Shown here: positions 1-8,095 of the stretch, one piece after another
Layout of the letters: each line of letters opens with the position of its first letter
How positions within the stretch are numbered: position 1 is the first letter of the stretch
NCBI GenBank assembly: GCA_903943625.1
Contig: CAJAPL010000064.1
Span: forward strand, 1-8,607
Reading direction: 5' to 3'
Length of the DNA: 8,607 nt
Origin: an uncultured bacterium
GTDB taxonomy: Bacteria > Patescibacteriota > Gracilibacteria > Absconditabacterales > Absconditicoccaceae
The notes under the pieces: generated by a model
The model's input: the letters and a program-made list of their open reading frames with translations, nothing else
Database searches by the model: none
What the model was told of the DNA's origin: nothing
Program-made: the position numbers and the translations under genes

Positions 1-768
1 ATCAGAATTTTGTATGTTCATTTTAAATTGAGTTCCCTCAGATTTTCATATCCGATTCCTTTCAAGATCTTTCATAGATTCTTCTCGGTTTAGTTTGTCT
101 AGTCAATCAATTAATCTTTGTGCGTATTTGGTGATTCTAAGTACTCGTTGTTTCATTGGTTTCTGTTCTACCTGACTTCCACAGCGTTCGCATTTACCAT
201 CATCGAGATCTTCGTTTGCGAGTCCTGTCATACAACTAGGACATCGGTTAATGGGCTTGTAGTCTACGTATGCAAGACGTTCCTGTCTGCTTGGATCTGT
301 AATAGGCATTGCTTTGTTCAAAGTTTCATCATAATAATGATTATACATTTTTAGAAAAATTCGCTGTGTCCATTTAAAATATTTTGGATCGGCTGTATTT
401 ACAGATCTAGATCGATCGTATGTAGTCCCAAACATTTCAAGCTGCTTGATATAGTTTTCTATATTCTGTTTTGCTACATCCTGTGGCTTCATCTTGTGTT
501 CTATAGCGTAGTTTTCCGTTCATAATCAAAATGTGTCAAATCACATAGGATGTAGGACGTTGTATCATTGAAGCATTTTTTTTCTTGCTATGGTGTCACT
601 GGCTATATATCATTTGGGGTGTCATACATGCAATCCAGCCCCTGAAGGATAGGGGAACATATCTAGGATATAAAATTTTTCTTTTTTGCTATCTTCAACG
701 ACTTTATAAATTCAGCTTTCTTTTCGCTTTTTTTGTCGTTTGGAGTCAAGCGATTTGGGATCTATCAT
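1..768 (-). CDS. leuS: Leucyl-tRNA synthetase, N-terminal part (partial, recoded UGA and CGA/CGG)
   Basis: Class I aminoacyl-tRNA synthetase that charges tRNA-Leu in the cytoplasm. The first 256 codons are in the window; the family is usually over 800 residues, so the C-terminal two thirds lie beyond position 1. The ATG at 766-768 is the first in-frame start after a TAA at 778-780. Visible in order: the ATP-binding HIGH motif as HVGH (residues 47-50) after MFPYPSGAGL; a GYNVLHPMG segment near 70-80; KWTQ near 133; and a zinc-binding pair CPSC (176-179) and CERC (193-196). The frame is open only if UGA is glycine, including the second G of the HIGH region and MG-FDTFGL. CGA at residues 11, 15, 119, 136, 175, 208 and 228 and CGG at 239 all sit where LeuRS has Trp; with the standard code they would be implausible arginines. 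CGU and CGC codons here stay at Arg positions, as in CERCG. The gene is transcribed away from the tRNA cluster. A weak promoter may lie at 856-884 on this strand (TATAAG with a poor -35). Family assignment is very secure. Confidence 0.95.
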
Positions 769-979: not shown

Positions 980-1054
980 GCCAAGGTAGCTCAGTGGTAG
1001 AGCAGAGGCCTGAAAAGCCTTGTGTCGGCAGTTCAATTCTGCCTCTTGGCACCA
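980..1054 (+). tRNA. tRNA-Phe (anticodon GAA)
   Basis: Complete cloverleaf. The acceptor stem GCCAAGG pairs with TCTTGGC (last pair G-T). The D stem is GCTC/GAGC. The anticodon stem GAGGC/GCCTT encloses loop CTGAAAA with anticodon GAA. The T stem GGCAG/CTGCC encloses TTCAATT. Discriminator A is followed by an encoded CCA at 1052-1054. It is first of three tandem tRNA genes. Confidence 0.96.
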
Positions 1055-1088
1055 TTAAATTAAAATAAAAATTAGACTGAAGGTATGT

Positions 1089-1165
1089 GGGCATATAGCT
1101 CAGTTGGTTAGAGCGCGTCTCTGATAAGGACGAGGTCGGTGGTTCGAGTCCACCTATGCCCACCA
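1089..1165 (+). tRNA. tRNA-Ile (anticodon GAT)
   Basis: Complete cloverleaf. The acceptor GGGCATA pairs fully with TATGCCC. The D stem is GCTC/GAGC. The anticodon stem CGTCT/GGACG encloses loop CTGATAA with anticodon GAT (reads AUU/AUC). The T stem is GGTGG/CCACC with loop TTCGAGT. Discriminator A is followed by an encoded CCA at 1163-1165. It lies 34 bases after tRNA-Phe and 14 before tRNA-Pro, so the three are probably one transcript. Confidence 0.96.
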
Positions 1166-1179
1166 CTAAAAAAATTATC

Positions 1180-1252
1180 GGGGATTAGCTCAGATGGCTA
1201 GAGTACTTGGTTTGGGACCAAGGGGTCGCGAGTTCGAGTCCCGCATCCCCGA
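1180..1252 (+). tRNA. tRNA-Pro (anticodon TGG)
   Basis: Cloverleaf with acceptor CGGGGAT pairing fully with ATCCCCG, including the C1-G72 start typical of bacterial tRNA-Pro. The anticodon stem CTTGG/CCAAG encloses loop TTTGGGA with anticodon TGG. The T stem GCGAG/CCCGC contains one A-C mismatch (1231 with 1241). Discriminator A at 1252 is not followed by an encoded CCA, unlike the two tRNAs upstream, so the CCA would have to be added by nucleotidyltransferase. Confidence 0.94.
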
Positions 1253-1289
1253 ATGTAATTGATTGCAAGGCAAGAATTTGTTTCAACTT

Positions 1290-3214: not shown

Positions 3215-3230
3215 TTAATGAATTTTGATG

Positions 3231-3839
3231 ATGAAAAATACTAAGTGAGGTCTTGTAGTGCAAAAAAAAGAAATGACAAGATTGTGGGTTGAAGATAAAC
3301 ATACTCCAGCTACAATAGTGAAGATTATGCCACAGGAGATTGTAAGATATAAAAATGAAGCAAAGGACTGATATATTTCAGCAGTTATTGGTGTAGAAAA
3401 AAAAGAACTAAAAAAAGAGAAATGAAAAAAGATTGATTATAAGATGGTTACTGAATTTGATGTTGATGATACATTTACACAATCACACGAGGCTTGAAAG
3501 GTTATAAACCAGGATTTATTGAAAGATGTAAAAACAGTTAGCGTGATATGATACTCAAAATGAAAATGATATCAGTGAGCTGTGAAGAGATTCCACTTAG
3601 ACTGATGACCCAAAACACATGGTTCAAAATTTCATAGACATGTAGGTTCTATGGGTAATAGAAAGCCAAGAAGAACTTTGAAGTGACATCCTCATGCATG
3701 ACATATGTGAGATGAAAAAATAACATTGAAAAATATCCAAATACTTGATTTTGTTGATTCTGATAAAGAAAGTTTAATTATTGTTAAATGATCTTTGCCT
3801 GGTGCATACAATGGTTTATTGAAGTTTGTTATAGAATAA
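3231..3839 (+). CDS. rplC: 50S ribosomal protein L3
   Basis: Large-subunit protein that binds near the 3' end of 23S rRNA and reaches toward the peptidyl transferase centre. The protein is 202 residues, near family length. N-terminal GLVVQKKEMTRLW corresponds to the usual GKKLGMTR region. The central loop KRFHLDGGPKTHGSKFHR and the following HVGSMGNRKPRR and HAGHMGDEKIT are characteristic, and the C-terminal VKGSLPGAYNGLLKF matches the usual VKGAVPG segment. Many glycines are TGA. A second in-frame ATG lies directly upstream at 3228, so the start may be three bases earlier. No ribosome binding site separates these choices. It is second in the S10 operon, 20 bases before rplD. Confidence 0.96.
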
Positions 3840-4880: not shown

Positions 4881-5729
4881 ATGCCCATAAAGAAGTACAA
4901 GCCCTATACTCCATCTAGACGTTTCATGGTATGATATGATTTTAGCGATATCACCAAAACCAAGCCAGAAAAATGATTAACAGTTTTTTTGGGTAAAACT
5001 TGATGAAGAAACAACAAATGAAGAATTACATCTAGATTTATGTGAGGAGGCCACAAAAGACTTTATAGAATAGTTGATTTTAAGGGTTATGACAAAGCTG
5101 CTGTACCTGCAAAGGTTTTGAGCGTAGAGTATGACCCGTATAGAAGTGCTAGAATAGCTTTGATATCCTATGCTGATTGAGAAAAAAGATATGTTTTGGC
5201 ATGGAAAAATATAAAGATTTGAGACACTGTGCTCAATGGAGATACTGCCCCAATACAAGCAGGGAGTAGAAAACAGTTAAAGGATATTCCAGAAGGTATG
5301 AATGTGTTTTGTTTGGAAATCACGCCATTTAGCAAGTGAAAACTTATAAAGTCTGCTTGAACTATGGCAAGTATTGTTTGAAAAGATGAACTGCAGAAAT
5401 TGGTTTTTGTTAAATTGCCATCATGAGAAGTAAGAAAATTTAATGAAAATTGCCGAGCTACTATATGAGAAATAGGCAATGAACAACACAAAAATGTTGT
5501 TATCTGAAAAGCGTGAAGACAGAGACGACTCGGGAAGAAACCACATATACTTTGAAAAAATATGAATCCAGTTGATCATCCACATGGATGATGAGAATGA
5601 CACTCTCCAATCTGATCAAAGAGGGGGCCAAAATCATTTAGTTGAAAATTGGTTGGTTCATGAATCAAGACCAGAAAGAATAAGAAACGATCTACAAAAT
5701 TTATTGTTTCTAAGAGAACAAAAAATTAA
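4881..5729 (+). CDS. rplB: 50S ribosomal protein L2 (UGA Gly; CGA at a Trp site)
   Basis: Primary 23S rRNA binding protein needed for subunit association and peptidyl transferase activity. The protein is 282 residues, close to the usual 273-280. N-terminal [12 protein letters not shown]; rRNA-binding [40 protein letters not shown]; and the C-terminal signature [13 protein letters not shown] at residues 228-240, with two of its GGG glycines and the later one as TGA. CGA occurs three times. At residue 216 (context AGRQR-x-LGKKP) the family has Trp, so it fits CGA=Trp. At residue 192 (NC-x-ATIG) the family varies and is often Arg. Residue 270 (KNKK-x-STKF) is variable. The ATG at 4881 is the only start in frame upstream of the core. 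It is followed by a 51-base spacer before rpsS. Confidence 0.97.
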
Positions 5730-7863: not shown

Positions 7864-8095
7864 AAATATCAAGGAACTTACCGGAGAGGTAATTAGCGAT
7901 AAAGTAAGTACTACTCGTATAGTTTGGGTTAGAACTGTCAAAACGCATCCTTTGTATAAAAAGAGATTTGTAGTAAGAAAGAAATATTATGCTCATGATG
8001 AAAAAAACGAATCTAAATTATGAGATAAGGTTTTGATAAGAGAGACTACGCCGATGAGCAAGTTGAAAAGACGAAAATTAGTTAAAGTTTTATAG
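7844..8095 (+). CDS. rpsQ: 30S ribosomal protein S17 (CGA at the conserved Trp)
   Basis: Small-subunit primary 16S rRNA binding protein with an OB fold. The protein is 83 residues, normal length. The core starts LTGEVISDKVSTTRIVWV, then VKTHPLYKKRF and the family signature [26 protein letters not shown]. It ends LKR-x-KLVKVL, where x (codon 77, 8072-8074) is CGA; this family has Trp at that place, supporting CGA=Trp. The ATG at 7844 is inside rpmC, a 20-base overlap, and codon 5 is a TGA glycine. There is no later ATG before the core, so this start is forced unless a non-ATG codon is used. It is followed 23 bases later by rplN. Confidence 0.94.

Follow-up and report, generated by a model that had tools for sequence, protein, structure and literature searches.

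What do CGA and CGG specify in this genome? Almost all organisms use both as arginine codons. The window, the whole 8,607-nucleotide stretch of DNA analysed here, opens with part of a leucyl-tRNA synthetase gene (leuS), in which an initial annotation, made from the letters alone, had noted seven CGA codons and one CGG codon at positions where the protein family carries tryptophan. From this it had proposed that both codons are read as tryptophan. We find this reading supported by the conservation of the alignment columns, by exchange with TGG among relatives, by a genome sample outside the window and by two Trp-type tRNA genes. CGA and CGG stand at tryptophan positions and are, with high confidence, predicted to be translated as tryptophan via tRNA-UCG and tRNA-CCG, both of which are likely charged with tryptophan by the single tryptophanyl-tRNA synthetase (TrpRS) found.

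A 16S rRNA gene was looked for in the present genome and not found. Placement in the Absconditabacteria is likely, judging by the record names of the nearest named relatives: leucyl-tRNA synthetase (LeuRS) identity is 79% to L037 (candidate division SR1) and 66% to P0025 (Candidatus Absconditabacterales), with 83% to L035 and 70% to L038, two records titled Candidatus Gracilibacteria. The titles of some near relatives describe them as lake MAGs.

Results

The minus-strand frame 768-1 holds 256 open codons when UGA is read as glycine, nine of them UGA, and encodes the 5′ part (256 residues) of LeuRS, cut by the contig end; its product matches LeuRS sequences in the PDB to E 1.4e-54. CGA occurs at residues 11 (736..738), 15 (724..726), 119 (412..414), 136 (361..363), 175 (244..246), 208 (145..147) and 228 (85..87) and CGG at residue 239 (52..54), all on the minus strand, and these eight are the total of CGA and CGG in the segment. 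All eight lie in tryptophan columns, as initially described, and none occupies an arginine position; the other arginine codons of the segment are AGA (five), AGG, CGT and CGC (one each). The only TGG (370-372, minus strand, residue 133) occupies a ninth conserved tryptophan column. If codons were placed at random on the 256 positions, all eight would land on these nine columns with a chance of 2.2e-14, a figure that describes the placement model only.

Alignment to LeuRS homologues, which the initial annotation had suggested, identifies the CGA/CGG columns as tryptophan. Across 73 distant loci from other records, tryptophan fills 571 of the 574 aligned cells at the eight sites, a count that is biased because the loci were found by patterns holding W at some of these sites. 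By column, it occupies 68 of 68 aligned rows at residues 11 and 15, all 73 rows at residues 119, 136, 208 and 239, 72 of 73 at residue 175 and 71 of 73 at residue 228. The TGG column at residue 133 is likewise tryptophan in 73 of 73 distant rows, and is written CGA or CGG in four of seven near rows. Nine genomes that share the class but not the family, chosen by kinship and with loci among the 30 top matches of a query bearing W, carry TGG at 66 of 70 aligned codons of the eight sites, phenylalanine codons at four and arginine at none, with 2 of 72 cells unaligned; eight of these outgroup frames are free of UGA and that of G048 has one.

Queries bearing arginine at the eight sites lead to the same columns. 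The LeuRS structure 3ziu has W at seven of the eight sites and Y at 119, and three variants of an 880-residue (E. coli-size) LeuRS have W at five, with V at 11, K at 136 and, at 228, H next to an inserted W; arginine stands at none of the eight sites in the four solved LeuRS sequences aligned with this query. When proteins were searched with the Arg-bearing query, 7971 matched, of which the best 120 were used and 60 rows inspected; the full series WWWWWWWW appears in 15 of these 60 rows, at 47-57% identity. Among the best 120 rows of the same search, R appears in 8 to 47 rows per site; in the 60 rows inspected, such rows belong, by identity, mainly to nearer relatives, for which the database translation presumably uses arginine for CGA and CGG.

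Codon exchange among close relatives bears directly on the alternative that the code is unchanged and that a degenerate LeuRS tolerates plain tryptophan-to-arginine substitutions. Among 20 further family genomes (those with a place in the 30 LeuRS loci matched to the W-bearing query), the nine tryptophan sites (n = 180) are written CGA 85 times, TGG 79 times, CGG 6 times and otherwise 8 times, with two cells unaligned. Arginine in these columns among close relatives, named at the outset as the finding that would contradict the tryptophan reading, was looked for, and CGT, CGC, AGA and AGG were found 0 times in the 178 aligned cells. At six LeuRS arginine sites of the same 20 genomes (n = 120), the codons are AGA 91, AGG 11, CGT 10, CGC 3 and other 5, with CGA and CGG at 0. 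The most variable of the tryptophan sites within the family is residue 136, where some relatives have TCA, ACA, ACT, AAA or GCA. That the sites alternate between CGA/CGG and TGG over 20 genomes without once showing AGA, AGG, CGU or CGC argues strongly against plain substitution, as do the same trend in ribosomal proteins L2 and S17 and in the genome sample and the presence of dedicated Trp-type tRNAs, all described below. Nothing favours an unchanged code except the standard code table itself; provided that the alignments are right, the exchange test already rules it out, and we regard it as vanishingly improbable.

The recognised genes of the window contain 13 CGA/CGG codons, of which 12 support tryptophan and one, in L14, does not. 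Three CGA codons lie on the plus strand in rplB (L2), compared over 30 family genomes including the present one, with row L035 excluded because its coordinates coincide with those of G001. Codon 191 (5454..5456) is TGG in 17 genomes, CGA/CGG in 10 and Tyr/Phe in 3, with His in the outgroup G051; codon 215 (5526..5528) is TGG in 23 and CGA/CGG in 7, with TGG in G051; and codon 269 (5688..5690) is TGG in 27, CGA in 2 and Thr in 1, with Pro in G051, so that the outgroup has TGG at only one of the three sites. In rpsQ (S17), the CGA at codon 77 (8072..8074, plus strand) faces TGG in L035 and Phe in G051, the sole two aligned rows. The CGA at codon 59 of rplN (L14; 8293..8295, plus strand), again with two aligned rows, gives no support for tryptophan because G051 has CGC (Arg) there and the near relative L035 has CGA.

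The ratio of CGA/CGG to TGG is uneven across the genes of the window, at 8:1 in LeuRS, 3:1 in L2, 0:1 in EF-Tu, 0:3 in S3 and 0:2 in L16, and the L3 frame (3219-3839) contains one TGG, no CGA and no CGG. A cluster of tRNA-Phe, tRNA-Ile and tRNA-Pro genes (980-1253, plus strand) lies between leuS and tuf, before an S10-type ribosomal operon. In an L2 tree built from 27 of the 30 family rows and one outgroup (G016, G025 and G033 having been removed by the length filter), 10 of the 25 inner branches are open, and we therefore do not use it to order events. Within TrpRS, the one tryptophan column that passes an 80% cut is TGG in 10 of 12 family genomes, CGA in G028 and CGG in G031.

To look beyond the window, we took a 186-kb sample of the genome (GC 0.25) that combines the window with 40 of the 216 contigs and three others, of which one was included in part. 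With CGA and CGG masked, the sample was aligned to 400 kb of G016, a relative in which TGG is mostly retained, yielding 51 aligned frames. Opposite CGA (n = 42) stood TGG 25 times, CGA/CGG twice and arginine codons 0 times; opposite CGG (n = 18), TGG 9 times, with CGA/CGG and arginine codons both at 0. A profile dominated by arginine, the second contrary outcome foreseen at the outset, was not seen in this 186-kb sample, where arginine codons face 0 of the 60 CGA/CGG codons compared with G016. Something other than TGG or CGA/CGG stood opposite 15 of the 42 CGA and 9 of the 18 CGG codons (Gln in four cases for CGG), and opposite 25 of the 56 TGG codons that served as a control (Arg in two cases), which otherwise faced TGG 25 times and CGA/CGG 6 times. 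In the arginine control (CGT 33, CGC 21, AGA 197, AGG 71), TGG appeared opposite 0 of 322 codons.

Against the standard-code G051 (21 frames), CGA of the sample (n = 16) faced TGG 10 times and arginine once, and CGG (n = 3) faced TGG twice and CGA/CGG once. Against G021, TGG stood opposite 19 of 40 CGA and 7 of 16 CGG codons, with arginine outside the seven commonest residues listed. Read in the other direction, the 101 TGG codons of G016 correspond in the present genome to TGG 31, CGA 26 and CGG 9, and the 73 of G021 to TGG 21, CGA 23 and CGG 8. Conserved tryptophan sites are thus written CGA or CGG in 35 of 66 cases (versus G016) and 31 of 52 (versus G021).

The sample also bears on the idea that C-to-U editing of the mRNA restores tryptophan codons. 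By codon logic, editing would turn CGG into UGG and so into tryptophan; against this, CGA is the commoner of the two codons, and its edited form UGA would yield glycine, not tryptophan, because UGA faces glycine in this genome (267 of 375 versus G016, itself read with UGA as Gly, and 143 of 176 versus the standard-code G051). We consider editing even less probable than plain substitution.

ARAGORN detects tRNA loci with anticodons UCG and CCG in the genome, each in two places and labelled Arg by anticodon. The rule used by Shulgina and Eddy (2021, methods; PMC8629427) classes a tRNA as Trp-type when it has G73 and not A20, with A/G1:U72 as weak support that is not required. The tRNA-UCG has G73, U20 and G1:C72, and hence lacks the weak element A/G1:U72, and the tRNA-CCG has A1:U72, G73 and U20. 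By eye, tRNA-Trp-CCA has A1:U72 and G73, and tRNA-Arg GCG and CCU have A20 and A73. A search for UCG and CCG tRNAs with tryptophan identity elements, also proposed in the initial annotation, therefore finds both present, with G73 and without A20.

These features extend across the family. Exact patterns matched tRNA-UCG in 22 and tRNA-CCG in 25 of 36 family genomes, and the Trp-type combination (G73, not A20) is found in 21 of the 22 and in all 25, respectively. Outside the family, the UCG pattern matched in 17 genomes, 8 of them with loci, and G73 without A20 occurs in 0 of the 8: six have A73 and A20, G036 has G73 with A20, and G056 has A73 with C20. A looser tRNA-UCG pattern applied to 17 genomes gave three matches, from which, judged by eye on the matched letters, no new family tRNA-UCG was accepted. 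The single-contig genomes G007 and G011 have no tRNA-UCG or tRNA-CCG by the exact patterns, an absence of a kind that is weak evidence. In the present genome (88% complete), tRNA-Arg-UCU and tRNA-Gly-UCA were not found; G001, a near-complete genome (96%) of the same genus, has a tRNA-Arg-UCU and a tRNA-UCA, which ARAGORN labels SeC and which we take to be the glycine tRNA for UGA.

The copies of tRNA-CCG and tRNA-UCG in G000, two places each with identical cores, lie on separate contigs C19, C152, C68 and C177 (L029, L030, L019 and L020); those on C19 and C68 lie 40 bases or less from the end of their contig, and the pairs are either true duplicates or assembly breaks. In another family of the class, locus L340 of G046, a genome with in-frame UGA, carries a tRNA-CCG with A1:U72 and G73 but with A at what we read as position 20, which may relate to the predictions of CGG as tryptophan in some Gracilibacteria.

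In one family member, G029, the tRNA-UCG is Arg-type and the tRNA-CCG Trp-type, a combination that suggested a split code in genus g20 with CGA as arginine and CGG as tryptophan. We rejected this candidate as likely contamination. Three other G029 loci have 24-27% GC, but the value is 37% in the locus holding the Arg-type tRNA-UCG (L297, contig C58 of G029), and although the five tRNA genes of L297 raise this value, the remainder still has 35%. The tRNA-Pro of L297 is only 81% identical to that of G021 over 80 bases, while the tRNA-CCG genes of the two genomes show no difference across 75 bases. By these sequence comparisons, the contig is probably foreign.

Charging of both tRNAs would fall to a single enzyme, as the genome contains one trpS match, which spans 299 of 328 profile positions. 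Compared with tRNA-CCA, the anticodon differs at position 36 in both tRNA-UCG and tRNA-CCG, and in tRNA-UCG also at position 34. TrpRS reads anticodon positions 34 and 36, and C35 and G36 are features recognized by the arginyl-tRNA synthetase (ArgRS). The anticodon of tRNA-UCG with its C35 and G36, the G1:C72 pair that this tRNA retains and the arginine at the L14 site in one outgroup would all be in keeping with ambiguous decoding, whereby the CGA/CGG tRNAs accept both tryptophan and arginine and give mixed proteins, tryptophan being favoured where it matters. Set against this are the unambiguous arginine codons, which face none of the 60 sample codons compared with G016 and stand in none of the 178 LeuRS tryptophan-site cells, and the lack in both tRNAs of A20, a main arginine feature in the 2021 rule. 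We judge ambiguous decoding to be very unlikely; according to the authors of Codetta, such translation is decidable by experiment alone (PMC8629427).

The use of CGA and CGG differs among three genomes of the family. In columns of G021 (L344-L363) aligned to G016, CGA occurs 6 times and CGG 3 times against 86 TGG. These codons are too rare in G021 to assign: versus G016, its CGA (n = 6) faces Arg once, CGG once and TGG 0 times and its CGG (n = 3) faces TGG once, and versus G051 its CGA (n = 1) faces Pro and its CGG (n = 4) faces TGG once. Such near-absence would be expected of codons that have been emptied and not, or not yet, captured. G016 has 17 CGA and 8 CGG against 101 TGG in columns aligned to the present genome; versus the present sample, its CGA (n = 17) faces TGG 3 times and Arg twice, the rest being mixed, and its CGG (n = 8) faces TGG 3 times and CGA twice, and versus G051 its CGA (n = 9) faces TGG once and Arg once. 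By these counts, CGA does not stand out as a tryptophan codon in G016.

Discussion

The codon positions, the way CGA/CGG and TGG replace one another among relatives, and the tRNA genes with their nucleotides are observed; from them we infer that TrpRS charges tRNA-UCG and tRNA-CCG, that ArgRS does not recognize them and that tryptophan is the amino acid placed in the protein. Under this reassignment, Trp-charged tRNA-UCG would read CGA and CGG, Trp-charged tRNA-CCG would read CGG and the ordinary tRNA-CCA would read UGG. Arginine would be left to AGA, AGG, CGU and CGC, likely read by tRNAs with arginine features, and TrpRS would need to accept G36 instead of A36. The most likely history is one of capture: in an AT-rich genome (sample GC 25%), the two codons would first have become scarce, then acquired a new meaning and finally regrown as tryptophan codons.

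With about half or more of its conserved tryptophan sites using former arginine codons, the present genome appears to stand at a late stage of such a history. We consider it about an even chance that, in the present genus, the former arginine codons have become the usual spelling of tryptophan and that the family would form a live codon-capture series running from G021 (9 CGA/CGG versus 86 TGG) through G016 (25 versus 101) to the present genome (35/66 and 31/52), one TrpRS having learned UCG and CCG; the gradient rests on three genomes, and we infer its order in time. Since family members differ in how much they use these codons, codon capture can be put to the test here. Bacterial sense-codon changes are few, and one could well be proved in a genome where CGA and CGG commonly stand for tryptophan. 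There is also a practical consequence, since annotation by tables 11 or 25 puts arginine for tryptophan, an error that would damage alignments and structure models as well as attempts at gene expression.

The change is not new in kind, and the present genome is a strong further case of a published prediction. As the initial annotation had correctly stated, the Codetta screen of Shulgina and Eddy (2021, eLife, PMC8629427), which reported five bacterial sense-codon changes, predicted for the Absconditabacteria (SR1) that UGA encodes glycine and that CGA and CGG both encode tryptophan; in one species, CGA and CGG (30 and 24 per 10,000) together exceed UGG (35). A 2026 paper also has the Absconditabacterales decoding both CGA and CGG as tryptophan. 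Support for this code in the published work consulted comes from sequence, not peptides, and among the titles and abstract openings surveyed we saw no experimental test of it.

The Absconditabacteria code described in PMC8629427 has the three changes in common with that of the present genome, and the two also share a very low GC content, a tRNA-GCG that serves CGU and CGC, and Trp-type tRNA-UCG and tRNA-CCG; the share of CGA/CGG at conserved tryptophan sites was obtained here from alignment to relatives and not from Pfam columns. NCBI table 25, for SR1 and Gracilibacteria, shares UGA as glycine with the present genome but keeps CGA and CGG as arginine, and would therefore mistranslate these genes. 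According to PMC8629427, Anaerococcus and the RFN20 Bacilli read CGG as tryptophan via a Trp-type tRNA-CCG, as predicted here; in those lineages, however, CGG alone has changed and CGA presumably remains arginine via an inosine tRNA, whereas in the present genome CGA is the commoner of the two changed codons.
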